DNA from: an uncultured Eubacteriales bacterium
GTDB taxonomy: Bacteria > Bacillota > Clostridia > Oscillospirales > Oscillospiraceae
Assembly: GCA_900319275.1 (NCBI GenBank)
Contig: ONNS01000038.1
Location: 1 to 36,614, forward strand
Reading direction: 5' to 3'
Length of the DNA stretch: 36,614 nucleotides
Both the position numbers and the translations under genes were made by a program. Numbering within the stretch: position 1 is the first letter of the stretch; each line of letters begins with the position of its first letter. The notes beneath the pieces were generated by a model. It searched no databases, had not been told where the DNA came from, and worked only from the letters and a program-made list of their open reading frames with translations. This document shows positions 1 to 30,007 of the stretch, piece by piece.

Positions 1-937
1 GCATCCCCGGCCAGGGCTTTCCGTCGGGGCCGTCGTTATAGTTGCTGGCCAGATAGCAGTTCCAGCCCAGGAAATCCAGCGGCTGATGGATCAGCGCCAT
101 CTCCACATCCGAAAGCATGTCCCGCAGGCGAGGGTGCGCCTCGCCCTTCTGGATGGGGTCCAGCCACCAGTTGAGATAGTAGTGATTGAGCTTGCCGGCA
201 AAGGTCTTTGCCCGCGCCGCTTCGATGTCGGTCACGCTCTCGGATTCCGGCATATACAGTGTGCTGTCCGTGGCAATGCCGATCTGGGGCGGCAGGATCG
301 CCGTTTCCCGGATCACGCGGGCCGCCCTGGCATGGGCCAGCAGCAGGTTTTTGCTCAGGCGCAGCACCTTCTCGGCCTCTTCCTCGCTCCCCGCCGGGAC
401 ACTCTCGAAAGGAGCGTGGGTGCCGTGCAGGTAGCCCTCGCCGATGAAGGACGTGCCCTCGTTGAATGTCATCCAGTACGACACCTTATCCGACAGGGCT
501 TCCACCACCACGGCAGCGAAGGCCGCAAAATCCTCGCTGATGGAGCCTGCGAGCCAGCCGCCCTTCTCGTGAACCCACAGCGGCAGATCCCAGTGATAGA
601 GCGTGACTAGCGGCGTGATACCCGCGGACAGCAGTTCGTCCACCAGCGCCCGGTAGAAGTCCAGGCCCTTCTCGTTGACCTTGCCCTCCTCCGGCATTAC
701 CCGAGGCCAGCTGACGGAAAAACGATAGGCCTTGAGGCCGATCTTCTTCATCAGTGCCACGTCCTCCCGGAAACGGTGATAGTGGTCACAGGCGACCCTC
801 CCGCTGTCTCCATGGGCGATATGACCGTCCGCCAGAGCGTCCCAGATGCTCGGCCCCTTGCCGTCTTCGTCGTATGCGCCTTCGATCTGATAAGCCGCGC
901 TGGCCGCACCCCAAAGAAAATCCTGCGAAAAGCTCAT
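1..937 (-). CDS. GH1 family beta-glucosidase / 6-phospho-beta-glucosidase, 3' end cut by the window
   Basis: A glycoside hydrolase family 1 enzyme that would hydrolyse beta-glucosides, or their 6-phosphates, in the cytoplasm. The first 312 residues are visible. The N-terminus MSFSQDFLWGAASAAYQIEG is the classic GH1 start. The acid/base motif TFNEG places the catalytic Glu at residue 160. The second catalytic motif, the nucleophile in I/V-TENG, lies beyond the window edge, so completeness cannot be judged. The start is an ATG at 935-937 with an AGGAGG ribosome binding site at about 941-950. No signal peptide is seen. It appears monocistronic from here: the next upstream gene, the HipA-like kinase, ends behind a hairpin. 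I cannot tell phospho- from non-phospho-glucosidase without the C-terminal half. Confidence 0.93.
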   Translation of the reverse strand, partial: MSFSQDFLWGAASAAYQIEGAYDEDGKGPSIWDALADGHIAHGDSGRVACDHYHRFREDVALMKKIGLKAYRFSVSWPRVMPEEGKVNEKGLDFYRALVDELLSAGITPLVTLYHWDLPLWVHEKGGWLAGSISEDFAAFAAVVVEALSDKVSYWMTFNEGTSFIGEGYLHGTHAPFESVPAGSEEEAEKVLRLSKNLLLAHARAARVIRETAILPPQIGIATDSTLYMPESESVTDIEAARAKTFAGKLNHYYLNWWLDPIQKGEAHPRLRDMLSDVEMALIHQPLDFLGWNCYLASNYNDGPDGKPWPGM

Positions 938-8703: not shown

Positions 8704-10146
8704 TCACTTGTCGTTCCTGTTTGAGCCTTGAGTGGGAAACGCCAGTCTTCGGCTGCAGCAGGCACGGATCAGCTCACTGTCATGGGTGACCACAAGAATC
8801 GTTGCTCCCAGGCCTTGCAGCTGCCGCAGAAGCGCCGCCGTCTCCATCATGTGGGCGTAGTCCAGACCGCTGGTGGGTTCGTCCAGCAACAGGAGTTTTC
8901 GCCCCGAGGCCAGCGCGCAGGCGATGGCGAGCCGCTGCTTCTGCCCGCCGGAGAGACTCTGCGGGTGACGATCCAGGAAGCCGTCCAGATCCAGCTGCTT
9001 CAGGATCTCCACCGCGCGCTTCTTCTCATTGGCCGTTCCCTTGGGAAGGGAGATCAGCACCTCGTCCAATACGCTCTCGGTGAAGAGCTGGTTGCCGGTG
9101 TCCTGCATGACCATGAAGCAGAGCTTCTGCCGTGCCTTGCGGTCATACCGCTTCCCGTCAAGCTCCAATGTGCCCCGGCAGCGCTTCTCCAGGCCGCAGA
9201 GGCAGGAGAGAAAACTGGTCTTTCCTGCGCCGTTGGTGCCGGTGATGGCGGTGATTTCCCCGGCGGCAAGCCGCAGCTCCGGGAAATCAAAGATCGAATG
9301 CCCGGAGCCCGGGTAGGTGAAGCGGAAATCCCGCAGGATGATCTCCCGGTCGCTCTCTTTGCGGACCGGCAGCTCGATCTGATCCGGCGCCTCCTGCGTG
9401 ATCGAGCGCAGGCCCATGGCGGCAAGTTCCCGGTCGGTCAGCGCGTCCTTTTTCTCACCGCTGAGTTCCTTTACGATCCTGCCGTCCCGCAGAATCACCG
9501 CCCGGTCGATCAGATCCCAGAGATACGCGATCCGATGCTCGGCGGCGATGATGGTCTTACCCTGGCGCTGCCAGAGTTGGATCAGTTCCCGCAGTGCCAT
9601 GGTCGACGCATCATCCAGATTGGCCGAGGGCTCATCCAGAAGGATGATCTCCGCTCCGCTCACATCCACCGAGGCGCAGGCGATTTTTTGTTTCTCCCCG
9701 TCGGACAGACGGAAGATGTTCCGGTCCATGAGCGCTTCGATCTGAAAGCGCGCCACCGTGTCGTCGATCCGTTCATAGATCTCCCGCTCCGGCAGGCCGC
9801 GGTTTTCACAGCCGAAGGCCAGCTCCCCGGTGGTGTCCACGTTATAAAACTGGCTGCGTGGGTTTTGGAAAACCGTGCCCACCTGCGCGGCGATCTCGTA
9901 CAGCTCCCGCTCATGCACGGGCTCTCCGTCGATGGTCACGCTGCCTGTCAGCATGCCGGGATAGAAGTGCGGAATCAGGCCGTTGATGAGCCGCAGGACT
10001 GTGGTCTTGCCGCAGCCGGAGGGCCCGGTCAGCAGAACAAATTCTCCGTCACGCACCGTCAGACTGAGGTCCGAGAGGCTGCTTACCAGCTCCGCGCCTG
10101 CCTCCTCCGCACCGTAGCGGAAGCTCACATGTTTCAATTCTACCAT
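8704..10146 (-). CDS. Fused double ATPase of an ECF-type ABC transporter (EcfA-EcfA')
   Basis: 480 residues with two complete ABC ATPase domains in one chain. Domain 1 has Walker A GPSGCGKTT (41-49), signature LSDGE (147-151) and Walker B ending DEP (171-173). Domain 2 has Walker A GTNGAGKTS (303-311), signature LSGGQ (398-402) and Walker B ending DEP (422-424). Fused ATPases of this kind power energy-coupling-factor importers, joining EcfT and an S component in the membrane. The start is the ATG at 10144-10146, which overlaps the EcfT stop (ATGGTAG); translation is probably coupled because the upstream Shine-Dalgarno is weak. An open frame continues further upstream but has no homology. Last gene of the TetR-led operon. 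Confidence 0.9.
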   Translation of the reverse strand: MVELKHVSFRYGAEEAGAELVSSLSDLSLTVRDGEFVLLTGPSGCGKTTVLRLINGLIPHFYPGMLTGSVTIDGEPVHERELYEIAAQVGTVFQNPRSQFYNVDTTGELAFGCENRGLPEREIYERIDDTVARFQIEALMDRNIFRLSDGEKQKIACASVDVSGAEIILLDEPSANLDDASTMALRELIQLWQRQGKTIIAAEHRIAYLWDLIDRAVILRDGRIVKELSGEKKDALTDRELAAMGLRSITQEAPDQIELPVRKESDREIILRDFRFTYPGSGHSIFDFPELRLAAGEITAITGTNGAGKTSFLSCLCGLEKRCRGTLELDGKRYDRKARQKLCFMVMQDTGNQLFTESVLDEVLISLPKGTANEKKRAVEILKQLDLDGFLDRHPQSLSGGQKQRLAIACALASGRKLLLLDEPTSGLDYAHMMETAALLRQLQGLGATILVVTHDSELIRACCSRRLAFPTQGSNRNDK

Positions 10147-10877
10147 AGCGCCACCCCACACAGTTCCAGGATCCAGACCGCGATTACGAACAGGCACCCG
10201 ACCAGCAGAACAAGGTCCTGCGCCCGGAAGCCGATCCGGCAGATATTGGTCCGGCGCACAGGGCCGCCCAGCCCCCGGGTCAGAGCGGAAGCGGAGAGCT
10301 CCTCCCCGATGCGCACGGTGGAGGTCATCATGGGCACCAGCTGGTATTCCAGCACCCGGGTCGCTTTCGCGCCGCCCAGGTGGATGCCACGCATGCGCAT
10401 GGCCCGGCGGATGGACCGCCACTCGGCCCCGATGGTGGGAAAGAGCCGGAACATCACCGACATGGGGATCGTGACGGCCTGGGGCATGTGCAGTCGCTCC
10501 ATGGCGGAGATGAACTCACTGACGGAGGTGGAGGCGATCAGATATTCGCCCATGACGACGGTCACCACGAACCGGGTCAGAATCCCGCCGCACATGAGGG
10601 CCAGGAAGTTCAGTACGCCCGGCAAATATGGTAAAGCGAACAGCAGGCCGTAGCCCACGGCCAGCATGAGTATGCCCCGCAAAAAGCGTTTCCCTTGCCG
10701 CTCTACCAGCAATAGCGCAAAGGGCAAAGCGGAAAGAGCCGTTTTAATTGGCCGCAGCGCCTCACCGCCAAGGCCGCCCATCACGAAGAGGGCCAGGATC
10801 AGCACCAGCGCCAGCTTGGTGCGGGGATCCAGGAAGCCCCGGCGGGCTTCTTGGGAGCGTTCAGAAGAATAGGCCAT
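10140..10877 (-). CDS. ECF transporter transmembrane component EcfT (CbiQ-like)
   Basis: 245 residues with about five hydrophobic segments. The two cytoplasmic coupling-helix motifs of EcfT are present: RMRGIHLGG near 161-169 and LTRGLGG near 199-205. These Arg-Gly motifs dock onto the two ATPase domains encoded next door. The ATG at 10875-10877 overlaps the preceding S-component stop by one base (TGATG), and the 3' end overlaps the EcfA start, so S component, EcfT and EcfA are tightly coupled. This makes a dedicated (group I) ECF importer. Confidence 0.88.
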   Translation of the reverse strand: MAYSSERSQEARRGFLDPRTKLALVLILALFVMGGLGGEALRPIKTALSALPFALLLVERQGKRFLRGILMLAVGYGLLFALPYLPGVLNFLALMCGGILTRFVVTVVMGEYLIASTSVSEFISAMERLHMPQAVTIPMSVMFRLFPTIGAEWRSIRRAMRMRGIHLGGAKATRVLEYQLVPMMTSTVRIGEELSASALTRGLGGPVRRTNICRIGFRAQDLVLLVGCLFVIAVWILELCGVALW

Positions 10878-11461
10878 CAGGCGAGCCCGGCCTTCTCAAA
10901 GTGCTTTTTCAGCAGCGCCCGTCCCAGCAGGCCGCCGAGAATGCCGCAGACAAAGCAGGCGATCAGCAGCACCGGGGCCATCCACAGGGGCATCAGCTTC
11001 TGCACCGCGTCGATGTATGCCTGGCCGTAGTCCGCCCGCTGGGCAAAGTAGCCCTCATAGTCGGTAAAGAGCGGCAGATAGTTGCCGTAGATCCACATAC
11101 TGAAAAGGCCATAGCTCAATACCGCTTTCTTCGCGCTCTTGTATTCGCCGCTCTTGAAGCAGAGCTCCGAGAGCAGTCCCGCGACGGCGCAGGTCAGGAG
11201 CGGCCAGGGGCCCATACCGGTCAGCAGCATGAGGATGCCCATGATCATGGCAAAGATGAAGATCATGCCGGGCTTTTTCACCTTGGTCAGAAACAGCATG
11301 AACGGAATGCCGCCGAGAATCGGCACCAGCACGCTCAGCAGCGGCAGGAAGATAGGGATCATGCCCAGCATCGCCACCGCAAAGAGAATGACGAAATAGA
11401 TCGCCCCGTAAATGCCCACGTTAATGAGGTCGCGCCCTTTGAGTTTGTTGTCGGTTTTCAT
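10877..11461 (-). CDS. MptD-like ECF transporter S (substrate-binding) component
   Basis: 194 residues, very hydrophobic, with about five to six membrane segments. The N-terminal pattern KLKGRDLINVGIYGAIYF and the PILGGIPFMLFLTKVKKPG segment resemble the MptD/Trep_Strep family of putative S components. This subunit would set substrate specificity. That substrate is not known for the family; metal chelates or siderophore-like compounds are a reasonable guess because these S components often travel with paired exporter-fold ABC proteins, as here. ATG at 11459-11461 with GGGAGG upstream. Confidence 0.8.
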   Translation of the reverse strand: MKTDNKLKGRDLINVGIYGAIYFVILFAVAMLGMIPIFLPLLSVLVPILGGIPFMLFLTKVKKPGMIFIFAMIMGILMLLTGMGPWPLLTCAVAGLLSELCFKSGEYKSAKKAVLSYGLFSMWIYGNYLPLFTDYEGYFAQRADYGQAYIDAVQKLMPLWMAPVLLIACFVCGILGGLLGRALLKKHFEKAGLA

Positions 11462-11482: not shown

Positions 11483-13214
11483 TTATGTTCTGACCTTCCA
11501 GCTGGCGGCCTCGCGGCGCTCGCCGATGAAGGTCCTGTATATTCCTTCCTCCGCCATCAGGCTTTCATGGTTGCCCTGCTGGACGATCCTGCCGTGGTCG
11601 ATCACCAGGATCTGGTCGGCATGCTCCACGGTTTTCAGCCGGTGGGCGATCATGATGACGGTCTTTTCCGCCGTCAGGGCCTGGATAGCCCGCATCAGTT
11701 CATTCTCGTTCTCCGGATCCACGTTGGCCGTGGCCTCGTCCAGGAAGATCACCGGCGCGTCCTTCATCATGGCCCGGGCGATGGAGATGCGCTGTTTTTC
11801 CCCGCCGGAAAGGCTGGCGCCGCCCTCACCGATCACCGTGTCGTAGCCCTCCCGCAGGGCCATGATGAAGTCGTGGCAGCAGGCCTTCTTGGCCGCCGCG
11901 ATCACGGTCTCCATGCTTGCCTCCGGCTGACCGAAGCGGATGTTGTTGGCGATGGTGTCGTGGAAGAGGTACACGTTCTGGAACACAAAGGAGAAGTTGG
12001 CCATCAGGGAATCCATGTCGTAGTCCTTCACGTTTCGTCCGCCGAGGGCGACGCTGCCCGCGTCCACATCCCAGAAACGGGCCAGGAGATTGACCAGCGT
12101 GGTCTTGCCGCCCCCCGAGGGGCCGACGATGGCCGTGGTGGTCTTCTCAGGGATCTGCAGCGAAACGCCGTCGATGACCTTGCGCTTTTCGTAGGAGAAT
12201 TCCACCGCCTCGGCGCGGAGCTCCCGCGTTGCAGGCTGGATCATCTCGCCGGCAATGTCCATCTGCGGCGTGTCCAGGATCTCCTGGGCCCGGTTGACAC
12301 TGACCTCCACCACCCGCAGTAGGGCGGAGTAGTTGCCCGCCGTCTCGAGACTGGCGTAGACGATGAAGGCGGAGATCACCATGACCACGGCGGTCAGCGC
12401 GTCCATGCTGCCCGCGCAGAAGAAGGCGCAGGAGAAGCCCACCATGCAAACGCCCGTGAGCTTGGCAAGAAAGCTCTGGGCCGTCATGCGGGGGATCAGG
12501 GTCATCTCCATGTCGGTGTTGATTTTCACGTTTTCGGCAATGGCGTCGTTGAGCTCCCGGCTCTTGGCGCCGGTCAGGTGGTAGGCCTTGACCTCGGCCA
12601 TGCCCTGCAGGTACTCCAGCACCTTCTCCACCAGCTTTTCATCCGCCGCGATCTTCCGCCGGGCAAGGCCGCCCGCCGCCTTCTGCAGGAAGCGGTTGGC
12701 CAGCAGGAAGAGGGCAAAGCCCGCCAGCAGCACCAGGGCGATGCGCCAGTCGAAGAAGAGGAGCATCACGATGATGAGGGAGGTGGTCAGCAGCCCCTCG
12801 CACACCAGCATCACCACCCGGGTCGCCACATTTTCCAGATTTTCCATGACGTTGGTGGTGACAGAGGTGATCTGGCCCAGGGAGTTCTCATTGAAATACC
12901 CCATTGGGAGATAGCGCATATGCTCGGCGATTTCCACCCGCTTTTTGGCGCAGGTGTCGTAGCCCGCCTCGGTCTGGAGCATGGTGCTTCTGGCCTTGAT
13001 GAGGCCGGAGCCCAGAATGCTCAGCAGCATGATGCCCAGGGAGAGCAGAATGTCCTTCGTTTCGATATTGCCCCGCAGCAGGGCCCGCACCATACAGGCG
13101 ATGGCGGGGATCTTCAGAGCTTCAAAGATAGCCTGCAGCACGCCCAGTGCGATGGAGACGCGGAACTTGTGCCGGTTCTCCTCGCCGCAGAAGGCGAAAA
13201 AGCGCTGTATGATC

Positions 13215-13222
<8 letters not shown>
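11483..13222 (-). CDS. ABC transporter, exporter-fold half-transporter B (permease-ATPase)
   Basis: 579 residues: an N-terminal six-helix type IV (exporter-fold) membrane domain (about 20-300) and a C-terminal ATPase with Walker A GPSGGGKTT (367-375), signature LSGGE (471-475), Walker B FLDE (Asp495, Glu496) and H-loop His527. All catalytic residues are present. Its start overlaps the stop of the partner gene by 8 bp, so the two are probably made one-to-one and form a heterodimer. Pairs like this next to siderophore or metal genes include importers with exporter fold (YbtPQ, IrtAB). From sequence alone, export of a drug or peptide cannot be excluded. ATG at 13222 with GGAGG upstream. Confidence 0.9.
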
Positions 13223-14960
<1,738 letters not shown>

Positions 14961-14981
14961 AAGTAAACCTCCCGTGTTTTT

Positions 14982-14991
14982 GTTAGCTAAC
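14982..14991. promoter_or_regulatory. GTTAGCTAAC palindrome ahead of the ABC genes
   Basis: The same GTTAG and CTAAC half-sites as the operators at the tetR and flavodoxin promoters, but abutting with no 6-bp spacer. It lies 22 bp upstream of the first ABC start. Possibly a low-affinity or half-occupied operator. Spacing differs, so this is tentative. Confidence 0.35.
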
Positions 14992-15030
14992 GAAGACCTT
15001 CCCTCGTTAACCAACCCTAAAAATGGCCAT

Positions 15031-15059
15031 CGCCTATCCCCCTGAGAGAGGGATAGGCG
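15031..15059. terminator. Strong hairpin between tetR and the ABC genes
   Basis: A 10-bp perfect stem, CGCCTATCCC (15031-15040) with GGGATAGGCG (15050-15059). It follows the tetR stop in the minus direction and is succeeded by ATGGCCATTTTTAG, a weak T run. It could partly terminate the tetR message, or lower the ratio of the transporter message to it. Confidence 0.5.
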
Positions 15060-15083
15060 GTGTTTGTAAAAGGATCGTTCCGG

Positions 15084-15692
15084 CTAAAAGCCCATCAGTT
15101 TTTTCCAGCCGGGGAGAAAAAAGGCTTCAATGGTGTCCAGGCAGCGGATCGCGTCCTCAGGCGGATAGCTGTGAATGACCGGTTCAAAAAGCGCAGTCGA
15201 ATAAGCGGAGAGCAGAAGATGCAGCTGGGTAGAATTGATGTCCCAGACCGGATATCCCAATTCCCGAAGCACAGGCAGATACGAAAGAAACTGCTCCTGT
15301 CCGGTCTCCGTCAGGTCGTGCAGGAAGTTCTCGTACTTCGTCCCACGGGATTTGGCAACAAGGAGGATATAGTCCTCCATGTGGGGATAGACGACCTCGC
15401 GCATCATGTCGATCCAGGAATCCCGCCACCGGGGCTCCCGACTGCTCAGGGCATCGTTCACATAGCGTTCAACATGCTCTTTCAGCCAGGTGTTCAGCCG
15501 CTCGACGGAGGGAGAGACCAGTTGGTCGAACAGATCCTGTTTATCCCGGCAATGGCGGTAGAGCCCCGCCGCCGTCATACCGCAGCGATCTCCAATGGAG
15601 CGCATGGAGGCCTTCTCAAATCCAAGTTCAAGAAATTCCTCCCGCGCGGCAGTCATCAGTTTGATATGGTTGGCGGTTTTATCTCGCGGCAT
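15084..15692 (-). CDS. TetR/AcrR-family transcriptional regulator
   Basis: 202 residues. An N-terminal TetR helix-turn-helix covers about residues 8-55 (GFEKASMRSIGDRCGMTAAGLYRHC). A helical ligand-binding domain follows with no obvious relative. I chose the ATG at 15690-15692, which has GGGAG 6 bases upstream; a longer frame runs through its own promoter. An inverted repeat GGTTAG-N6-CTAACC covers the predicted transcription start, the usual autorepression arrangement. The same operator is present twice upstream of the DUF2325-DUF3793-flavodoxin operon, 5 kb away. The regulator therefore probably controls itself, the ABC/ECF genes and that operon, released by a ligand that may be the transported molecule. 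Confidence 0.9.
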   Translation of the reverse strand: MPRDKTANHIKLMTAAREEFLELGFEKASMRSIGDRCGMTAAGLYRHCRDKQDLFDQLVSPSVERLNTWLKEHVERYVNDALSSREPRWRDSWIDMMREVVYPHMEDYILLVAKSRGTKYENFLHDLTETGQEQFLSYLPVLRELGYPVWDINSTQLHLLLSAYSTALFEPVIHSYPPEDAIRCLDTIEAFFLPGWKKLMGF

Positions 15693-15709
15693 AGTACACT
15701 CCCGTAAGT

Positions 15710-15758
15710 GGTTAGCCATGTCTAACCGTATGTTAACAGAATTTGCGTTCGCTGTCAA
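15710..15758 (-). promoter_or_regulatory. tetR promoter with GTTAG-N6-CTAAC operator
   Basis: Minus strand: -35 TTGACA (15753-15758), 17-bp spacer, -10 TAACAT (15730-15735). The operator GGTTAG-N6-CTAACC (15710-15727) starts 2 bp downstream of the -10 box, over the start site. A further TGTTAACA palindrome (15731-15738) overlaps the -10 box. Placement fits autorepression by TetR. Confidence 0.75.
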
Positions 15759-15767
15759 GGGAAGATT

Positions 15768-15899
15768 CCTCTTGCTGTCATGGCTGAAAATATCGGAGAA
15801 GCACCGGTCGCCGTCTTGGTTCGGGGCGATGAAATCCCCGGTAAAGAGAAGTGTGTCGCCGATCAGGCAGCGCAGATGACCCAGCCTGTGCCCGATGCC
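15768..15899 (-). pseudogene. Remnant of a metallo-beta-lactamase-fold hydrolase
   Basis: A 44-codon stretch on the minus strand with no start codon reads GIGHRLGHLRCLIGD, then LLFTGDFIAP and CFSDIFSHDSKR. This is the segment of an MBL-fold enzyme around the third metal ligands. It aligns without gaps to the intact MBL gene at 32745-33617 (PGHTWGHMVYLID, LFTGDTIW, and an equally spaced Asp-x-x-Arg region). It has lost both ends; its right end abuts the tetR promoter. It is evidently the debris of a second copy. A shared ancestral MBL gene from another family is also possible. Confidence 0.6.
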
Positions 15900-15918
15900 G
15901 GCAGTGCCTGCACTTTCG

Positions 15919-16833
15919 TCACAGCCGCTTCAACAGTGCGATCTGGTTGCCGAAGTCTCGCCGGCTTTCCTTGAACACCGGCGCGGAGGCGTAGCAGTGC
16001 ATGAGCCCCGGTTCGATGTGCATGTGCATTCTTGCTCCAACGCCGTCCTTGCTATAGCGATTACGAATTGCATCCGCGACGGCGGAGCAGGCCTCCTCCG
16101 TGTAGAACACGTAAGTCTCCGGCGCGCTGCGGAAGTCCATATCGTCAGGATGCAAAAGGCAGTCCGGTGTATCCGGTGACAGTTTCAGCGTGAGCCCCAG
16201 CATCGCCGAAAAGGCGCCGGGCGTGATTATCGCGTCGTCCCGTTCCAGTTCCTCCGCCCGCTTCCATTCGGCTTCCGTTTTCGGATAGGCGAAGGGGGAA
16301 TTCAGAATCAGAAGCCCCGGCATCTCTGCATTCGCAGGATTTCGATTGATACACGTCAGAAGCTGCATGGCGAGAAGCCCACCGTAGGAGCCGCCGACAA
16401 CAGCCACCATTTCCGCCCCGTATTCCTTCACCATACTCCGATACATGTCGAAAATGAGATCCGCTGTCCGGGCCGGAGAGGCCTCCGTGAACGGCGGATA
16501 GATCGGATAAAACACGTCCATGCCCGCCCGCTTCCCATACCTTCTGGCGAAGGACAGCTCGGGCTTCCACGCGTCGTGATCCCCACCGCCGTGGAGGAAC
16601 AGGATCGCTTTGCGCGCAGGTTTCTCCGGCCGGATCACAAGGCAGGGGTACCCGTCCACCCATCGCGTTTCATAAACCGCTTTACGGTCTGTCGGCTCTT
16701 TATAAGGATGCTTCCGGTTGTATTCCCTCGCTCTCCTCAGGCCTGCCTCCAGGTCCGCATCCGGACCTTTGACGAGGCCGCTTTTCTTGATCGCCCGCAT
16801 GGCCGATACCGCGGTTTTTGCCCCAAAACTCAA
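15919..16833 (-). CDS. Alpha/beta-hydrolase, HSL/acetyl-esterase-like
   Basis: 304 residues resembling the hormone-sensitive-lipase branch of esterases. HGGG (81-84) would form the oxyanion hole. GGSYGG (147-152) carries nucleophile Ser149. MHCY supplies His279. At the acid position the intact paralogue has GTDE, while here the segment reads YTEEACS, so Glu replaces Asp. It starts with TTG at 16831-16833, 8 bases from GGGAGG; the next ATG would remove 11 residues. Paralogue of the partial gene at the right window edge. Last gene of a four-gene run led by an ATC hydrolase. Substrate unknown; an ester or amide of a small acyl compound is typical. Confidence 0.85.
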   Translation of the reverse strand: MSFGAKTAVSAMRAIKKSGLVKGPDADLEAGLRRAREYNRKHPYKEPTDRKAVYETRWVDGYPCLVIRPEKPARKAILFLHGGGDHDAWKPELSFARRYGKRAGMDVFYPIYPPFTEASPARTADLIFDMYRSMVKEYGAEMVAVVGGSYGGLLAMQLLTCINRNPANAEMPGLLILNSPFAYPKTEAEWKRAEELERDDAIITPGAFSAMLGLTLKLSPDTPDCLLHPDDMDFRSAPETYVFYTEEACSAVADAIRNRYSKDGVGARMHMHIEPGLMHCYASAPVFKESRRDFGNQIALLKRL

Positions 16834-16865
16834 GGAGACACCTCCCTTACGAATTCATTTCCTCT

Positions 16866-17741
16866 TCAGTCCCATCCCTCTAAAAATCGGAACTCCTGCT
16901 CGAAGCAATCCTTCCGGGAGGCGTCACATTCTTCCGGCCACATTTTCTCCGCCGGGAAGGCCTTCTTCCAGGATTCCGGTGGGTTGGTCCCCAGCAGGTG
17001 GCTTGCATGGGGATAGATCACGGTTTTTACGCGATAGGGGTAAGCCACATCTTTTAGCTTCTGCTCCATCCGCCAAACCGCCGTGGGAGAGGGCCATTCG
17101 TTGTCCCGCTCAGGCGCGATGAGCAACAGGTCCGCCTTCAGGTTTTCCACCCGAATGCGGGAGGCCTCCGTCAGCGTCGCGTTTTCGTAGAGGGAACGGA
17201 GAAATTCGCCCTGATGCGACCTGTCCTGCCGCCGGTACTCCCGAAGGGAGCCGAAGAAACCCTTCTCCCGCTGTCCGGTAAAGAGCGAACAGGGGTAATC
17301 ATTTCCATGATAGCTGAACCAGGACCGCCCGGTGGGCTTGCCGAAGATCTTCGGCTCCTCCATCACATAGTCAAAGGGGCAGATACTGAGCACTAGGCTG
17401 ATCTCCGGGATCAGCGAGGCGCACAGGAGGGCATAGGCAGCGCCCGAGGAGATGCCGTGGATACCGATCTTCTCAAAGCCGCTGCGCCTAAGCTCGGCCA
17501 CGGCCTTTTCCACGTAATCCACAGGTATGGCGCGCATCGCCTTCGGCATGCCCTTCCAGAAATAGAAGCCGAGGACCAGCACCGAGTATCCGGCCGCGCG
17601 CATATACTCTGAATCCGCAAGACAATGCTTTTCGTTCATCCCAGACCCATGCATCCAGATGACGGCCTTTTCCTTATGGCTCGTACCCTCAAACCAGCGG
17701 GCCTCAAAACCGTCCTCTTTCAGGTGATAACTGTTTTTCAT
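16866..17741 (-). CDS. Alpha/beta-hydrolase, BAAT/dienelactone-hydrolase-like
   Basis: 291 residues. Features are WMHGSG near residue 30 (oxyanion region), nucleophile motif GISSGA near 95-100, a late Asp in APERDNEWPS and His in PHASHLLG near 250. The architecture fits the BAAT C-terminal / dienelactone-hydrolase-like group. Paralogous to 34863-35783, sharing GFxxxW near the start and a PFDYVMEE / PPDFVMEG segment after the nucleophile. Its ATG overlaps the upstream hydrolase stop in ATGA. No signal peptide, so cytoplasmic. Substrate unknown. Confidence 0.85.
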   Translation of the reverse strand: MKNSYHLKEDGFEARWFEGTSHKEKAVIWMHGSGMNEKHCLADSEYMRAAGYSVLVLGFYFWKGMPKAMRAIPVDYVEKAVAELRRSGFEKIGIHGISSGAAYALLCASLIPEISLVLSICPFDYVMEEPKIFGKPTGRSWFSYHGNDYPCSLFTGQREKGFFGSLREYRRQDRSHQGEFLRSLYENATLTEASRIRVENLKADLLLIAPERDNEWPSPTAVWRMEQKLKDVAYPYRVKTVIYPHASHLLGTNPPESWKKAFPAEKMWPEECDASRKDCFEQEFRFLEGWD

Positions 17742-18550
17742 AATTGCTTTTCCTCTTCAAACAGTTTTTCCCCTCTCGCCGCCGCGGAAAGCCAAGCGCA
17801 GTATTCCTCCAAATGCTCTCCGGGATATCCCACATGGCCGTAGCCGCTAACCAGCATATACTGCGCATAGGGATAGGCTTTTTTCAGTTTCCTGTGGCAG
17901 AAGCGCCAGGCGGATTCTTCTTTGGAATAGAAGAAGGTCAAACGCTTTTGGAAGTCTCTGTCTATGGCAGGGAAATCAAAGGTCACGCAGGCATCCGCCT
18001 CCCGTTCCAGCGTCTCATCGCTCATATAAGCGGCGTTCTGGCAGATCGGCCCCAGCATATTGCTGTAGCGCTCCGGCTTCCCGCCGGAGAATTTTACAAT
18101 CGTGGGCTCCCGCAGCGCCTCGTCCAGGGTCTTGCCCCGCAGATTTCCCACAATGGTTTTGAACTTGTTTCCCAGCACTGTGGAGACGAACTTCGGTAAG
18201 TGCAGGAAGGGTCCTCCGTCAAAGAAAGCCGCACCCACTTCAATGCCGTTCTTCTTCAACTGGGAGAGAAGCTCCAACCCCATCTCGCCGCCCATGGACT
18301 GTCCGTATACCAGGGCGACGGAGGTCATGGACAGCTCCCGTAAACAGCGGATGACTTCTTCCGCCTCTCCGCGCCGTGAGGTAAAGGGCTTTTCGCTTCC
18401 GGCATACTGTCCATTATAATCCACGGCCAGAATGTGAAAACCCCTTTCCAGCCTGCTTATGATGTTCGCCATAGTGTCCGCATTGCAGAAAGAACCCGGC
18501 AGCATGATGACGGCCGGCGCGTCTTTCTCTCCGTATGTATGAATCCTCAA
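17738..18550 (-). CDS. Alpha/beta-hydrolase, small cytoplasmic type
   Basis: 270 residues with MLPGS near 17-21, nucleophile motif GQSMGG near 83-88, and a C-terminal His in SGYGHVGYPG. Resembles the hydrolases at 21024 and 23045: all three have a short N-terminal strand, a V-x-YDG/NG segment near 45 and a similar length. Starts with TTG at 18548-18550, supported by GGGAGGGGGA upstream. Middle gene of the run, ATGA overlap to the next. Likely an esterase; substrate unknown. Confidence 0.83.
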   Translation of the reverse strand: MRIHTYGEKDAPAVIMLPGSFCNADTMANIISRLERGFHILAVDYNGQYAGSEKPFTSRRGEAEEVIRCLRELSMTSVALVYGQSMGGEMGLELLSQLKKNGIEVGAAFFDGGPFLHLPKFVSTVLGNKFKTIVGNLRGKTLDEALREPTIVKFSGGKPERYSNMLGPICQNAAYMSDETLEREADACVTFDFPAIDRDFQKRLTFFYSKEESAWRFCHRKLKKAYPYAQYMLVSGYGHVGYPGEHLEEYCAWLSAAARGEKLFEEEKQL

Positions 18551-18576
18551 GTCTCATCCCCCTCCCGCTTGTTTTG

Positions 18577-19209
18577 TCAGATACTCTTGCTTCGCTCCCA
18601 GCCGTTTCCGGCGTCGGTCTCATGCCGAACAAAGCGAAAGTCGCAGAGCTCGCCTCCCTGACACAGTGTCTGGGTACGGATGAAATCCGTGTAGGGCAGG
18701 CTCCCGTAGTTGATGATATCCGCCCGGCAGCACATGGCGCCCAGCTTCAACAGTCCGCGCCTCGAGAGGATCTTCTCATAGATGCACTCGTTGCACTCAA
18801 AGTGAAATTCGTCCTTCGGATCGTCCGCATGCCAGGTGTAGCGCCAGCCATAGCCGGAGCCCTTCTTAAAACCGAAGGGAATGATCTTCTTCATCAGCGG
18901 CAGGAAGAAACGCTTCTTTGCCAGCTTCTGCATGCCGGAGGGATCGAGAAACTTCCACATCTCCTCGGAGACGATCCGATAGGACTCTTCCTCGCTGCGG
19001 CCGTGCCGCTGCAGCACCTCGTACAAAGCGATGGAGGTGAGGATCTGCGCCATGTGCTTGGTATTGCCCTTGTCGCAGTACGCCTTTTCCTCTTCGATGA
19101 GCTTCCGTATGCGGGCGTAGACGTCCTCCTGGATCTTGGTCGGAAGGCTCGGGAAATAGTTCTGATAGCGGCTGATCGCCACAAGCTGCTTTGCTTCATA
19201 TTGCTTCAT
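18577..19209 (-). CDS. L-2-amino-thiazoline-4-carboxylic acid (ATC) hydrolase family protein 1
   Basis: 210 residues. An N-terminal helical half of about 110 residues is followed by the Cys-rich catalytic-type core of this family: CNEC (Cys139, Cys142), MCCRAD (Cys160, Cys161, Asp164), R-x2-TL (Arg178, Thr181) and GELCDF (Cys189). The founding Pseudomonas enzyme opens a thiazoline ring to N-carbamoyl-cysteine. Most clostridial members are uncharacterised, so only family-level function is claimed. First gene of the 19.2-15.9 kb operon with three hydrolases. Two further divergent members lie at 26204 and 29378. ATG at 19207-19209 with AAGGGG 9 bases upstream. Confidence 0.82.
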   Translation of the reverse strand: MKQYEAKQLVAISRYQNYFPSLPTKIQEDVYARIRKLIEEEKAYCDKGNTKHMAQILTSIALYEVLQRHGRSEEESYRIVSEEMWKFLDPSGMQKLAKKRFFLPLMKKIIPFGFKKGSGYGWRYTWHADDPKDEFHFECNECIYEKILSRRGLLKLGAMCCRADIINYGSLPYTDFIRTQTLCQGGELCDFRFVRHETDAGNGWERSKSI

Positions 19210-19244
19210 CTTCTGTGGCCCCTTAATTGTTTCAGTTCTGCTCC

Positions 19245-19273
19245 ATTATAGTTTGCAGGCGCTAGCTCACAAA
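19245..19273 (-). promoter_or_regulatory. Possible promoter for the ATC hydrolase 1 operon
   Basis: A perfect TATAAT (19245-19250) lies about 35 bp upstream of the ATC hydrolase 1 ATG. The matching -35 position (19268-19273) reads TTTGTG, a poor match. No GTTAG-N6-CTAAC site is present, so this operon seems outside the TetR regulon. Confidence 0.45.
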
Positions 19274-19276
19274 GAG

Positions 19277-19313
19277 AAAGCGCTGCGGAAATCGGAAAAT
19301 TTCACAGCGCTTT
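19277..19313 (-). terminator. Hairpin downstream of the flavodoxin operon, distal
   Basis: AAAGCGCTG (19277-19285) pairs with CAGCGCTTT (19305-19313). The minus-strand product continues into a short T/C-rich stretch. Probably a backup terminator isolating the next operon. Confidence 0.5.
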
Positions 19314-19360
19314 TGGCTTTTGCCCTATTTTTTCCATCAAGCGGTTGAAAAACCGGTTTG

Positions 19361-19399
19361 AAAGCGGAGATTCAGAAAGCTTTCCGGAATCTCTGCTTT
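19361..19399 (-). terminator. Hairpin directly after the small peptide gene
   Basis: A 13-bp stem with one G-T wobble (19361-19373 with 19387-19399) begins at the base after the TAA of the 29-codon frame. It lies about 100 bp past the flavodoxin stop and probably ends the DUF2325-DUF3793-flavodoxin transcript. Confidence 0.65.
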
Positions 19400-19489
19400 T
19401 TATCTCAGGGCTGCCGCCAGCAGAACCAAAGCAAGCGGCAGCAGCTCACCCAGGAGTTTGCGCCTGATGCGCTTCGCTGCGGCGTCCAT
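19400..19489 (-). CDS. Putative 29-residue single-pass membrane peptide
   Basis: A short frame starting 10 bp after the flavodoxin stop, with GAGGG/GGAAG as ribosome binding site. The product MDAAAKRIRRKLLGELLP, followed by a hydrophobic tail ending in LAAALR, has a basic N-terminus and one hydrophobic helix long enough to touch or span the membrane. Its TAA abuts a terminator stem, so it fits exactly between flavodoxin and the end of the transcript. No homologue recognised. It may be a small membrane partner of the operon or a chance frame in GC-rich DNA. Confidence 0.45.
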   Translation of the reverse strand: MDAAAKRIRRKLLGELLPLALVLLAAALR

Positions 19490-19499
19490 ATCTCTTCCC

Positions 19500-19922
19500 T
19501 CAGGCCAGCGCCTTGCCCAGGGCATTGCAGGCCGCAGCAGCGTCGCCGTCGGGCTCGCCGGCGCAAATCACGCTTTCGCAGGCAAGTTCGATGCCGGAGG
19601 CCTCGCAGTCGGCTTCCCATTTGCGCATCCACTCCCCGTCGCCCCAGCCGTAGGAGCCGAAGAGCGCGACCGCCTTGGAGGCCAGCTTCTTCTTGACATT
19701 GTCGAACATGGGCTCAAAGTCGCTGTCTTCCAGGGATTCATCCCCCATGGCGGGGCAGCCGAAGGCAATGGCGTCATAGGCGGTCAGATCGGCGGCGGCA
19801 GCCTGGCTGCACTCCAACAGCACTGCGTCAGCTCCAGCCTCACGCATCCCGGCCAGCACGGCGTCCGCCATGGCGGCGGTGTTGCCGGTACCACTCCAAT
19901 AGACAACTGCGGTTTTTTTCAT
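19500..19922 (-). CDS. Flavodoxin
   Basis: 140 residues. The FMN phosphate-binding loop WSGTGNTAAMA lies at about residues 9-19, and the isoalloxazine loops GCPAMGDESLED (about 58) and GSYGWGDGEWM (about 93) are typical of short-chain flavodoxins. It carries electrons in the cytoplasm and often replaces ferredoxin under iron limitation. The ATG at 19920-19922 was chosen because homology begins there; the open frame extends 53 codons upstream into the preceding gene. Co-transcribed with DUF3793 and DUF2325 from a promoter with two TetR-type operators. This context suggests a role in metal or cofactor handling, for example reducing an imported chelate. Confidence 0.93.
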   Translation of the reverse strand: MKKTAVVYWSGTGNTAAMADAVLAGMREAGADAVLLECSQAAAADLTAYDAIAFGCPAMGDESLEDSDFEPMFDNVKKKLASKAVALFGSYGWGDGEWMRKWEADCEASGIELACESVICAGEPDGDAAAACNALGKALA

Positions 19923-19954
19923 GCTTGTCTGTTCCTTTCTTAAAAAATAAACGA

Positions 19955-20506
19955 TCAGATGGCCACGGCAAGCTGGTCCAGTCCCATCCCCTGCCGCAGG
20001 CAGCGGCAGTAGCTGTCGGTGCAGCGCTGGAAGCGCTCGAACAGGCGCTGTGCCTTTTCCTCGTCGCCGTATACCTTCCACATGCCGATGCGCTTGTAGT
20101 TGGCGGCGTGGTTTTCGATGAAGCCCTGCACGTCCTCCGGCGGGTATCCGAGGAACAGACCGATCTCATGGGGAAAATCCTCGCTCTCGCGGAAGCGCTT
20201 GACCAGGCAGCTGACACAGGCGCTGCAGCCCTCCGTGGGATAGCCCGCCTTGCACAGCAGGCTCTGTGCCAGGCTGTTCTGCAGATCCTTTTTCAGCCCT
20301 TCCGGACGGAACAGATACAGCAGCGCCCGCTTTTCTCCGAAGCGCAGCGGCAACAGGCACAGCCCGCGGCGCACATAGCTGCGGTTGAAGGCGCGGATCT
20401 CCTCCTCCAGCTCTTCTCTGCTGTCATAGGCGCAGGGGAAGAGGTTACCGCTTTTGATCCCGGCCAGCGTCGGCGCGCACTGGCGTACCACGGTCTCGTC
20501 CGACAT
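19955..20506 (-). CDS. DUF3793 family protein
   Basis: 183 residues. Recognised by the conserved N-terminal CAPTLAGIKSGNLFPC, the LLPLRFGEKRALLYLFRP segment and the C-terminal IGLFLGYPPEDVQGFI and VYGDEEKA. Several cysteines (GYPTEGCSACVSCL near 90) could bind a metal or cofactor. The biochemical function is unknown; in clostridia the family occurs with flavodoxin and DUF2325, often near ferrous-iron (Feo) genes, so iron-linked activity is a fair inference. Start ATG overlaps the DUF2325 stop by one base (TGATG). Confidence 0.88.
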   Translation of the reverse strand: MSDETVVRQCAPTLAGIKSGNLFPCAYDSREELEEEIRAFNRSYVRRGLCLLPLRFGEKRALLYLFRPEGLKKDLQNSLAQSLLCKAGYPTEGCSACVSCLVKRFRESEDFPHEIGLFLGYPPEDVQGFIENHAANYKRIGMWKVYGDEEKAQRLFERFQRCTDSYCRCLRQGMGLDQLAVAI

Positions 20507-20784
20507 CAGGCATACTTCTCCAACACCTTGCGCAGCGCGGAGACCGAACTGGTGGGGCAGTGTTCGATATAGCAGTCCTGGCCTCTCAGCTCGCTCATGG
20601 CGCCCTGCAGCATTTTGTGGGACATACAGCTGGTGAAGAGGATCACCAGGTCCGGGCTGCCGAGCTTTTTCCTGACGCCGCCCACGGGCTTGATGAGCAC
20701 CTTGGCGTCATGCTTGTAATCACGACACAGCGCCTTGTAGTTGCGTTCCATACACTCGTTTCCGCCTAGAATCACAACACTCAT
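20506..20784 (-). CDS. DUF2325 domain protein
   Basis: 92 residues, a compact Rossmann-like fold typical of DUF2325: VVILGGNECMERNYKALC at the N-terminus and DLVILFTSCMSHKM in the middle, with a CYIEHCPTSSVSAL tail. Unknown function; common in clostridial operons with flavodoxin and DUF3793. The start ATG at 20782-20784 has GGAG 9 bases upstream. First gene of the operon directly downstream of the two-operator promoter. Confidence 0.88.
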   Translation of the reverse strand: MSVVILGGNECMERNYKALCRDYKHDAKVLIKPVGGVRKKLGSPDLVILFTSCMSHKMLQGAMSELRGQDCYIEHCPTSSVSALRKVLEKYA

Positions 20785-20816
20785 ACAGCCATCTCCTTTG
20801 CTGTCGGATTGTTTGA

Positions 20817-20869
20817 GTTAGTCATCTCTAACCATCTTTTATTATAGTTAGCGGCCTCTAACTTGTCAA
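20817..20869 (-). promoter_or_regulatory. Consensus promoter with two GTTAG-N6-CTAAC operators
   Basis: Minus strand: a perfect -35 TTGACA (20864-20869) and perfect -10 TATAAT (20841-20846), spacer exactly 17 bp. The first operator GTTAG-N6-CTAAC (20847-20862) fills 16 of the 17 spacer bases. The second (20817-20832) lies in the early leader. Both match the tetR operator. A promoter this strong would be fully active unless repressed, so it is almost certainly under tight TetR repression. Confidence 0.85.
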
Positions 20870-20909
20870 GAGCTTTTTGCGTTTTTCTTGCCCCCTCTGC
20901 GGGAAAGCC

Positions 20910-20937
20910 GACGGCAGACGTTCTCACATCTGCCGTC
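20910..20937 (-). terminator. Hairpin downstream of the 26.9-21.0 kb operon
   Basis: GACGGCAGA (20910-20918) pairs with TCTGCCGTC (20929-20937), about 90 bp past the hydrolase stop and before the flavodoxin promoter. No strong T-tract follows. Confidence 0.45.
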
Positions 20938-21023
20938 TGTCCACTTTATTCCGAATCCCGCTGATTGAGCCACGCCGCCTATGGAAACGCGTTGTTCCGG
21001 TTTCCCTTTCCTTTTCATATCCG

Positions 21024-26203: not shown

Positions 26204-26875
26204 CTATTTCGCGTCCGGGCCCGGCATGAAGCCCAGCTCCTCGGCTCTTTCCCGGCTCATCAGATGGAAGTTGCACTCGTCGTCGCCCCAGCCCAGGGTC
26301 TTTGTCCGGTCCAGCACGGCGCCCTGCATCTCAAAGGTGTAGTAGTCCATCATGCACAGATGCCTCGTAAGGCCCTCGCAGTGCTCCTGCTTCGTAAGTT
26401 TGCAGATGCCGCACTGTTTGTGGGTGATGTAATATTCTTCCTTTCCCGGCACGGTTTTAAAGTAGTAAAACCAGTTCATCGGGTATTCGTCGATGTGGTC
26501 CCGCGACCATTGGGCCTGCCGGGTGCGGTTTGCGATCTCTTTTTCCGTAAAGGCGCTCTTGCCCTGCTTGGCCTTCACCATCAGGGGGCAGTAGGCCAGC
26601 GCGCGGACCAGCCCTTTCAGCTTCTCCTCGTCCAGCTTTCCGTCCGCCTCTTTGTAGAGTGCGATCGCAAAGGCCCCGCAGTACATGGTCAGCACGAACA
26701 TGTTGTCCTTCATGCTGCCGATGCCGGGCGTCCGCTCCACGATGGCCCGGTACTCCCGCAGCACCCGCTTTTTGTAGGAGACCATATCCAGTCCCGGGAT
26801 CGCTTCTTCCATATAAGCAAAGGCTGTTTTGGCAAAGGCAAGCTTGATAAAGCCGCCCAGGATTCCGTATTTCAT
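26204..26875 (-). CDS. ATC hydrolase family protein 2
   Basis: 223 residues. The core motif set of the L-2-amino-thiazoline-4-carboxylate hydrolase family is present: CGIC (Cys155, Cys158), LCMMD (Cys174, Asp177), R-T-K-TL (Arg190, Thr193) and DECNF (Cys201). The N-terminal helical half differs from copy 1. Leads the operon of membrane proteins, PanE-like enzyme and two hydrolases down to 21.0 kb. The ATG at 26873-26875 has AAAGGAG 8 bases upstream; a longer frame to 26986 runs through a terminator. Enzymatic activity not shown for clostridial members. Confidence 0.8.
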   Translation of the reverse strand: MKYGILGGFIKLAFAKTAFAYMEEAIPGLDMVSYKKRVLREYRAIVERTPGIGSMKDNMFVLTMYCGAFAIALYKEADGKLDEEKLKGLVRALAYCPLMVKAKQGKSAFTEKEIANRTRQAQWSRDHIDEYPMNWFYYFKTVPGKEEYYITHKQCGICKLTKQEHCEGLTRHLCMMDYYTFEMQGAVLDRTKTLGWGDDECNFHLMSRERAEELGFMPGPDAK

Positions 26876-26960
26876 AAGAAAGCTCCTTTGTATTTCTCCG
26901 AGACGATTACAAGAGTTGCAAACAAACTTAGTTTTTTCATCCCGAAGGGAATCAGAATCG

Positions 26961-26989
26961 TTTTTGAGGCAGCTTTGCCGCCTCAAAAA
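26961..26989 (-). terminator. Intrinsic terminator between operons
   Basis: A perfect 10-bp stem (26961-26970 with 26980-26989) with terminal A/T runs on both sides and a 9-base loop. It lies about 100 bp beyond the P-type ATPase stop and upstream of ATC hydrolase 2. Between it and the ATPase (26990-27062) are further small GC-rich inverted repeats but no gene. Confidence 0.8.
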
Positions 26990-29356: not shown

Positions 29357-29380
29357 CCCGGCTTTCGCCGGGTTTTTTTA
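29357..29380 (+). terminator. Intrinsic-terminator hairpin in plus orientation
   Basis: CCCGGC-TTTC-GCCGGG followed by seven T on the plus strand. No plus-strand gene ends here. On the minus strand it is a GC hairpin preceded by A residues, placed between the ATC hydrolase 3 stop (29378) and the DUF6110 ribosome binding site. It could stop antisense transcripts or stabilise a processed end. Confidence 0.55.
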
Positions 29381-30007
29381 CTTTTTCTTATATCCGCAGT
29401 CGCAGTACGGCCCGCCGGAGGCGAGCGTGTATTCCCGGACAAATTCCGATGCGCCGCCCGCCTCGCTCATGGTGTAGTCCAGATGGCACATGGCGGGGGT
29501 CAGTTCAAAAAGTCCCAGCTCCTTCATGAGCGTGCAGATGCCGCATTTGGTGAAGCGGGCCTCGTAGCCGCTGCCGTCCGGATAGGGCAGATAGTCCATG
29601 TTCCAGGAATAGGGGTTGCGGTCGGCGGCGCGCAGCGCGGCGGTATCCCGCATGCCCTGAAGATCCGCGTCCGTGAATTTGCGCTTCCCGCTCATCCGGC
29701 AGAACCACCGGGTGGGCGCGGTCATCATGGCGCGGGCGTAAAACGCGGTCAGCTTCTCCACGTTCGGCCGCTCCTCCATGCTCAGCAAAAAGGCGCAGAG
29801 CATAGCGCAGTTCACGATATTCATTTCGAAGCGGTCGCCCTTTTCGAATTCCGGGAGCTTTTCGATGATCTCCCGGTATTTGGGCTTCGCCTTTTCGGTG
29901 ATCTCCCTTGCCTCCTGTTCCGTACACCCCAGCACGGAAACCAGATGCTCCCGGAAAGACTTCCGATACAGCAGCCACATGCCCAGAGGCATTCCCATGT
30001 ACTTCAT
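29378..30007 (-). CDS. ATC hydrolase family protein 3
   Basis: 209 residues. The Cys core is CGIC (Cys155, Cys158), MCHLD (Cys174, Asp177), REYTL (Arg191, Thr194) and a final YCDCG (Cys202, Cys204). The first four key residues sit at exactly the same numbers as in ATC hydrolase 2. The N-terminal half (60-100) is helical. The start ATG overlaps the upstream methyltransferase stop (ATGA) and is preceded by GGAGAGG. Sits between a run of methyltransferases and the metal ATPase. Activity inferred only from family. Confidence 0.8.
   Translation of the reverse strand: MKYMGMPLGMWLLYRKSFREHLVSVLGCTEQEAREITEKAKPKYREIIEKLPEFEKGDRFEMNIVNCAMLCAFLLSMEERPNVEKLTAFYARAMMTAPTRWFCRMSGKRKFTDADLQGMRDTAALRAADRNPYSWNMDYLPYPDGSGYEARFTKCGICTLMKELGLFELTPAMCHLDYTMSEAGGASEFVREYTLASGGPYCDCGYKKK

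Follow-up and report, generated by a model that had tools for sequence, protein, structure and literature searches.

A GTTAG-N6-CTAAC box of an uncultured Oscillospiraceae bacterium as the probable operator of an iron-sensing DtxR-family repressor, beside a different, candidate TetR operator

Which regulator binds the inverted repeat GTTAG-N6-CTAAC (the N6 box) that recurs in contig ONNS01000038.1 of an uncultured Eubacteriales bacterium (Oscillospiraceae, assembly GCA_900319275.1)? In the stretch analysed here (positions 1 to 36,614 of the contig, called the window), the box stands before a tetR gene and, twice, before an operon for a DUF2325 protein, a DUF3793 protein and a flavodoxin. A preliminary description of the window gave the box to the TetR protein, which would repress itself, a neighbouring transporter of the ATP-binding cassette (ABC) and energy-coupling factor (ECF) types, and the flavodoxin operon. 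From sequence comparison, we consider it probable (about 0.82) that the box is instead the operator of an iron-sensing, SH3-less repressor of the DtxR family, P0001, encoded outside the window, and that TetR uses a different, spacer-less operator locally. The gene calls of the preliminary description (TetR, ABC, ECF, DUF2325, DUF3793 and flavodoxin) agree with the family matches, and the features that carry the argument are listed below.

20841..20869, minus strand: sigma-70-type promoter of the DUF2325-DUF3793-flavodoxin operon, 12/12 consensus
20847..20862, minus strand: predicted iron box, exact N6 box filling 16 of the 17 spacer bases of this promoter
20817..20832, minus strand: second predicted iron box, exact, just downstream of the -10 hexamer of this promoter
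20506..20784, minus strand: DUF2325 protein (PF10087, 87.5 bits)
19955..20506, minus strand: DUF3793 protein (PF12672, 187.7 bits)
19500..19922, minus strand: short-chain flavodoxin (PF00258 and TIGR01753; start picked from the domain match)
15730..15758, minus strand: tetR promoter TTGACA-N17-TAACAT, 10/12 consensus
15711..15726, minus strand: predicted iron box, exact, just downstream of the tetR -10 hexamer TAACAT
15084..15692, minus strand: TetR-family regulator, 202 aa (PF00440, 42.8 bits)

The promoter of the flavodoxin operon consists of TTGACA (20864-20869) and TATAAT (20841-20846). Boxes over or next to promoter elements, as here, are standard repressor architecture. The box before tetR is also exact in the related loci L220-L223 and in genome G002, and has one mismatch in L224.

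The N6 box in the window, the genome and the order

The three boxes listed are the only exact copies in the window, just as the preliminary description had located them. They are real and far above chance, with no exact box in any of 100 shuffles of the window. At up to two mismatches, the window gave 8 matches versus 6.29 expected, so weaker copies in it are meaningless. The whole genome (3.04 Mb) holds 6 exact copies versus 1 of the reversed-pattern control. With one mismatch, 14 copies were found versus 24 of the control; most of these are thus background, and we rejected them as a regulon list. Only two were retained, by virtue of their positions in front of feoA (C104:15890) and of a further DUF3793 gene (C89:3578); six more were left aside.

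Three exact copies lie outside the window, two of them as a pair (C99:349, C99:437) and the third alone at C104:19546. The pair lies upstream of an open reading frame (ORF; locus L007, about 239-301, minus strand) whose first 21 residues resemble by eye the N-terminus of the DtxR family, the similarity being lost near the contig end. The single box (C104:19546-19561; L008, 6047-6062) lies between genes, downstream of the feo cluster, where the sequence also has hairpins, and a promoter-like TTGACA-N17-TAAACT, read by eye, precedes it. Possibly it belongs to a small RNA or is a chance copy.

The box was then counted across 60 genomes of the order (37 from the genus of this bacterium, itself included, and 23 from other families), using a per-genome table that was entered by hand and rechecked. 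There were 171 copies versus 38 for the reversed control, and 51 genomes had any copy versus 25 for the control. Only three of the 60 genomes, namely G002, G008 and the present one, have a full-length relative of the TetR protein, and all other matches of the TetR search were short helix-turn-helix stretches. Yet 48 of the 57 genomes without such a relative carry the box (139 sites versus 36 for the control), at feo, DUF3793 and DtxR genes. The motif is thus conserved in relatives, contrary to one of the refuting outcomes named in the preliminary description, but it neither follows the orthologues of this TetR nor is restricted to genomes or loci that have one, and TetR as its sole binder was rejected on this distribution. 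Relatives of P0001 were found in 51 of the 60 genomes and in 47 of the 51 box-bearing ones; both protein and box were present in 47 genomes, the regulator only in 4, the box only in 4 and neither in 5.

For the genes beside the boxes, we examined 98 relative loci (94 with an exact box), which cover 144 of the 165 sites of the relatives; together with the 3 own-genome sites outside the window this makes 147 sites, 13 of them inside ORFs of at least 150 aa. Within 250 bp of these sites there were 119 genes, including 17 of FeoA, 9-11 matching FeoB models, 6 of DUF3793, 5 with iron-dependent repressor domains, 5 of ABC, 4 of ATC_hydrolase, 3 of HMA, 2 of NEAT and 2 of Zip, as counted among 25 of the 118 matched families and from box-adjacent genes alone. 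The gene calls in these contexts were mechanical, and the second FeoA went without a seed of its own because the seed FeoA2 had been read out of frame. In the loci of the relatives, the N6 box precedes feoA, feoB, DUF3793, ABC importer and DtxR-family genes.

Furthermore, DUF3793 and DtxR genes were searched from their own side, with shuffles that keep dinucleotide blocks. Within 700 bp upstream, a box with at most one mismatch was found for 25 of 28 DUF3793 genes of the 60 genomes (0.38 in shuffles) and an exact one for 17 (0.03 in shuffles). These 28 come from 29 rows, the dropped row being the second piece of the C89 gene; less than 700 bp of upstream sequence was available in G052, G010 and G025, and the genes without a box are those of G052, G031 and G011. 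Meanwhile, a blind dyad search in the 300 bp upstream of 30 DtxR genes (the best-matching loci of 63 listed matches) returned GGTTA-N8-TAACC in 14 and GTTAG-N6-CTAAC in 10, and the best of 200 shuffles reached 3. Of these 14 dyads, 8 match the N6 box exactly and 6 deviate from its frame by one or two mismatches. The second DUF3793 gene of the genome (G000:C89:2775-3567, L298) is in two pieces in different frames; a one-mismatch box lies before it, and its promoter, read by eye, has a layout like that of the flavodoxin operon with weaker boxes.

In addition, an AraC-family regulator gene in G008 (contig C23; L144, 3034-3984) lies 17 bp from a box, and it is possibly a further regulator of iron uptake.

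A spacer-less dyad at the TetR loci

The intergenic region between tetR and the first ABC gene (ABC1) contains three further elements.

14982..14991, minus strand: spacer-less site GTTAGCTAAC, unique in the genome, candidate operator for TetR at the ABC promoter
15006..15015, minus strand: upstream member of the paired spacer-less sites, GTTGGTTAAC, 2 mismatches, 24 bp start-to-start from the next
15029..15061, minus strand: conserved hairpin between tetR and ABC1, 14 consensus pairs, 20 sequences aligned

The preliminary description had taken the site at 14982-14991 as a spacer-less version of the same motif. The site is present, but by its genomic distribution it is a different element, and we rejected it as a variant of the N6 operator. 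The genome has this one copy only, before ABC1 (control, 0), and the 712 kb of the 98 relative loci likewise contain a single exact copy, beside the orthologue of TetR in G002. To these we add 40 TetR loci, namely the window, G002 and 38 of 47 further loci, those with full-length matches, from Ruminococcaceae and Lachnospiraceae metagenome-assembled genomes (MAGs) of the rumen, three Treponema, Eubacterium brachy and others. With at most one mismatch, the spacer-less site was found in 31/40 tetR upstreams and 28/40 tetR-ABC1 intergenic regions (0.16 and 0.26 in shuffles), and it was exact in 23/40 of the latter, whereas the N6 dyad reached 11/40 in both. Two spacer-less sites 24 bp apart precede ABC1 in 18/40 loci, as in the window; the shuffles for the TetR loci and the site pairs kept base composition alone. 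Since the spacer-less site is conserved at TetR loci and rare elsewhere, we take GTTAGCTAAC to be probably the TetR operator. The N6 box and the spacer-less site are two distinct dyads, and a mistake is hereby corrected in which two operators with a common half-site had been read as one. In the clade of the window, the tetR promoter carries the predicted iron box instead (at most one mismatch in L220-L224, the window and G002).

The two dyads meet at some ABC1 promoters. Nesting with a spacer-less site (at most one mismatch) was seen for each of the 8 exact N6 copies that lie up to 200 bp downstream of tetR, versus 11 of 144 elsewhere, and the nested form at ABC1 promoters is GTTAG-CTAACA-CTAAC, 16 bp long. 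We suggest tentatively, at slightly less than even odds, that an iron sensor of DtxR type and a ligand sensor of TetR type, which are unrelated, share the GTTAG half-site and discriminate by spacing alone (6 versus 0 bp). If this is true, iron status and ligand signal would compete for one half-site within 16 bp. A tamer view of the nesting reads the third half-site as part of the operator of TetR itself.

The hairpin between tetR and ABC1 (CACCGCCTRTC...GAYAGGCGATG) shows two-sided changes at 10 of 14 pairs in distant TetR loci, and L231 seems to be without it. An Rfam scan of 14900-21000 gave no match, the hairpin included, and the element is possibly a terminator or attenuator. In addition, a TetR gene of 61-66% identity occurs with an ABC pair in members of distant phyla, namely in L230, L231 and L243 (Treponema) and in L238 (a MAG labelled Succinivibrionaceae), with ABC1 identities of 82% in the three Treponema and 34% in L238. 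This suggests horizontal transfer or, for L238, MAG contamination.

The candidate iron repressor and its rivals

G000:C104:15369-15737, outside the window: P0001, SH3-less DtxR-family protein, 123 aa, DtxR core only

P0001 matches PF02742 (53 bits) and PF01325 (47 bits), and its gene, the only PF01325 match over the cut-off, is the only confident DtxR-family gene of the genome. On the same contig the gene order is feoA-feoA-feoB, and the one-mismatch box C104:15890 lies in the feoA promoter (TTGACA-N17-TATACT by eye), divergent from the P0001 gene, which suggests an iron box. Residues C101, E104 and H105 of a C-x2-EH metal motif, together with H79, are invariant in 20 aligned sequences (the own protein and 19 of 29 others, some rows starting one codon before the start); the roles that we give to these metal-site residues are partly presumed. 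With the DtxR/IdeR family, the system has in common the DNA-binding and metal/dimerisation domains, the metal-site residues and TTAG-N6-CTAA at iron-uptake promoters. With the EqbA subclass, it has in common the absence of an SH3 domain and a predicted GTTAG-N6-CTAAC operator in the genome. We infer that P0001 binds the N6 box, which is most likely an EqbA-type iron box. EqbA of Streptococcus equi (ICESe2), DtxR-like and SH3-less, is described as shifting the eqbB promoter only with the palindrome holding GTTAGATGTATCTAAC; in these gel shifts EDTA weakened binding and Fe2+ or Zn2+ enhanced it, Mn2+ less so, and Fe3+ and Cu2+ did not (PMC3672683).

Several results weigh against the reading as a DtxR-type iron box. 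The strongest, against P0001 as the general binder, is that the relative search and the family profile found no P0001 relative in four box-bearing genomes, namely G043 (7 sites, 97% complete), G052 (5, 97%), G035 (4, 81%) and G028 (2, 57%). No metal-domain match over the cut-off was found in them, and their PF01325 matches are weak, except one just over the cut-off in a 524-aa frame of G028. Meanwhile, G001, G004, G031 and G044 have the regulator but no exact box, and 17 of the 30 DtxR genes have no box at up to one mismatch within 300 bp upstream. The association of protein and box (Fisher p = 0.002) is weakened as a statistic by ignoring kinship and assembly completeness, and the common half-site makes cross-binding between the two dyads possible by sequence. 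Furthermore, EqbA has the metal cysteine of DtxR type but is described as lacking the methionine ligand of DtxR (PMC3672683), and this counts on the same side. The four genomes speak for an iron box bound by another conserved regulator. We think this improbable, as EqbA, a DtxR-type protein, is described as binding a palindrome with the same dyad (PMC3672683), the boxes stand at DtxR genes and have the geometry of DtxR sites, and in the four exceptions the gene may have been missed, the assemblies being incomplete or the protein divergent. That TetR binds the N6 box, thereby repressing its own gene, the transporter and the flavodoxin operon, is very unlikely. In its favour, the tetR promoter has the box both in the window and in close relatives, the half-site of the box is also that of the spacer-less element found with TetR, and at eight ABC1 promoters of TetR loci an exact N6 copy is nested with a spacer-less site; against this, the box is present, at feo and DUF3793 genes, in 48 of the 57 genomes that have no full-length relative of TetR, and before tetR the spacer-less dyad clearly outnumbers the N6 dyad (31/40 versus 11/40).

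The metal itself could be manganese or zinc, with a role like that of MntR. Among solved structures, P0001 matches MntR proteins best (57 versus 35 bits for DtxR), which also counts against an iron sensor, and two Zip genes follow boxes. Residue 10 is Asp, as in MntR. However, the targets are mainly Feo, plus flavodoxin, NEAT and siderophore-type importers, and the metal-site cysteine is of the DtxR type, which is described as conferring the Fe2+ response (PMC3672683). We give manganese or zinc only a small chance.

Under the iron reading, Fe(II)-bound P0001 would cover the promoters of feoA-feoA-feoB, DUF2325-DUF3793-flavodoxin, the second DUF3793 gene and tetR, and keep them off. Low iron would release them jointly, giving ferrous uptake, flavodoxin in place of ferredoxin, and expression of tetR and the importer region. 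In this clade tetR itself would be under the control of the iron box, and TetR would control the ABC/ECF importer locally through the spacer-less pair at 15006-15015 and 14982-14991, as a repressor or perhaps an activator that probably senses what is imported, a metallophore or haem-like ligand. DUF3793, together with the DUF2325 protein and flavodoxin of its operon, would thereby gain a role in iron starvation in rumen and gut Clostridia, and an order-wide iron box would make the iron response predictable from sequence in largely uncultured bacteria.

The importer, its surroundings and known systems

13215..14966, minus strand: ABC half-transporter 1 (ABC1); its top-scoring solved bacterial counterparts are siderophore importers (6p6i, then IrtA)
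11483..13222, minus strand: ABC half-transporter 2
10877..11461, minus strand: ECF S component, MptD/Trep_Strep family (PF09605, 220 bits; TIGR02185)
10140..10877, minus strand: ECF T component, CbiQ-like (PF02361)
8704..10146, minus strand: ECF A component with two ATPase domains (PF00005, two stretches; start inferred from the ORF)

Among the best 60 of 259 structure matches of ABC1, the yersiniabactin importer and IrtA score below long eukaryotic exporters. Chain A of 6p6i is YbtP, and the match 8vsi chain B is named YbtQ. It is a fair reading of these matches that the ABC pair is a metallophore importer. An ECF haem importer under iron control has been described, LhaSTA (PMC7299338). Within the stretch examined, a flavodoxin gene is found in 8 of 38 named TetR loci and a DUF3793 gene in 5 of 38, so the link between transporter and flavodoxin recurs; L220 and L222 have DUF2325-DUF3793-flavodoxin, preceded by a double box, on the far side of the transporter. 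The preliminary description had joined the transporter with flavodoxin, DUF3793 and DUF2325 as one unit through TetR. The unit is upheld by the shared box, the 25 of 28 DUF3793 genes and the flavodoxin at TetR loci, while the tie through TetR is not; the link stands, most likely through iron instead.

The stretch 15919-36529 of the window is dense in alpha/beta hydrolases, SAM methyltransferases, a metallo-beta-lactamase-fold protein and a P-type ATPase beside DUF6110; these genes possibly form an accessory island that surrounds the importer. Three proteins of the ATC_hydrolase family (18577-19209, 26204-26986 and 29378-30007) are in the window. The family, also seen in the box-adjacent genes, is named after a thiazoline carboxylate hydrolase, and our guess is that these proteins dismantle thiazoline-type metallophores.

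Literature searches on DUF3793, and on the DtxR family with feo, flavodoxin, Firmicutes, Clostridia or Faecalibacterium, turned up nothing that names this regulon in its listing, and the DUF3793 search gave nothing beyond work on a fungus. In Faecalibacterium duncaniae, feoB of feoAABC is reported as iron-repressed and a flavodoxin gene as rising with feoAABC, but the main text of that paper mentions neither DtxR nor the motif (PMC10781979). The YbtPQ and IrtAB importers are likewise paired ABC half-transporters of the exporter fold; the pair here differs in preceding an ECF module (S, T and A) and in following tetR. The IdeR/DtxR proteins of Actinobacteria are iron-dependent repressors whose single-dimer site, described for IdeR as TTAGG-N4-CCTAA, has the same TTAG-N6-CTAA frame, but their usual site is the 19-bp TTAGGTTAGSCTAACCTAA for two dimers, and they have an SH3 domain, which is absent here (PMC8464063). 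EqbA/eqbB of the equibactin element ICESe2 is alike in its SH3-less DtxR-type repressor, in an operator containing GTTAG-N6-CTAAC and in importers of the same locus, including a YbtPQ-like pair. However, EqbA controls a single siderophore locus, carried on a mobile element, whereas the predicted regulon here includes feo, flavodoxin, DUF3793 and a TetR with its own candidate operator; operators of EqbA type would then reach beyond a single mobile element to a regulon of the whole order.

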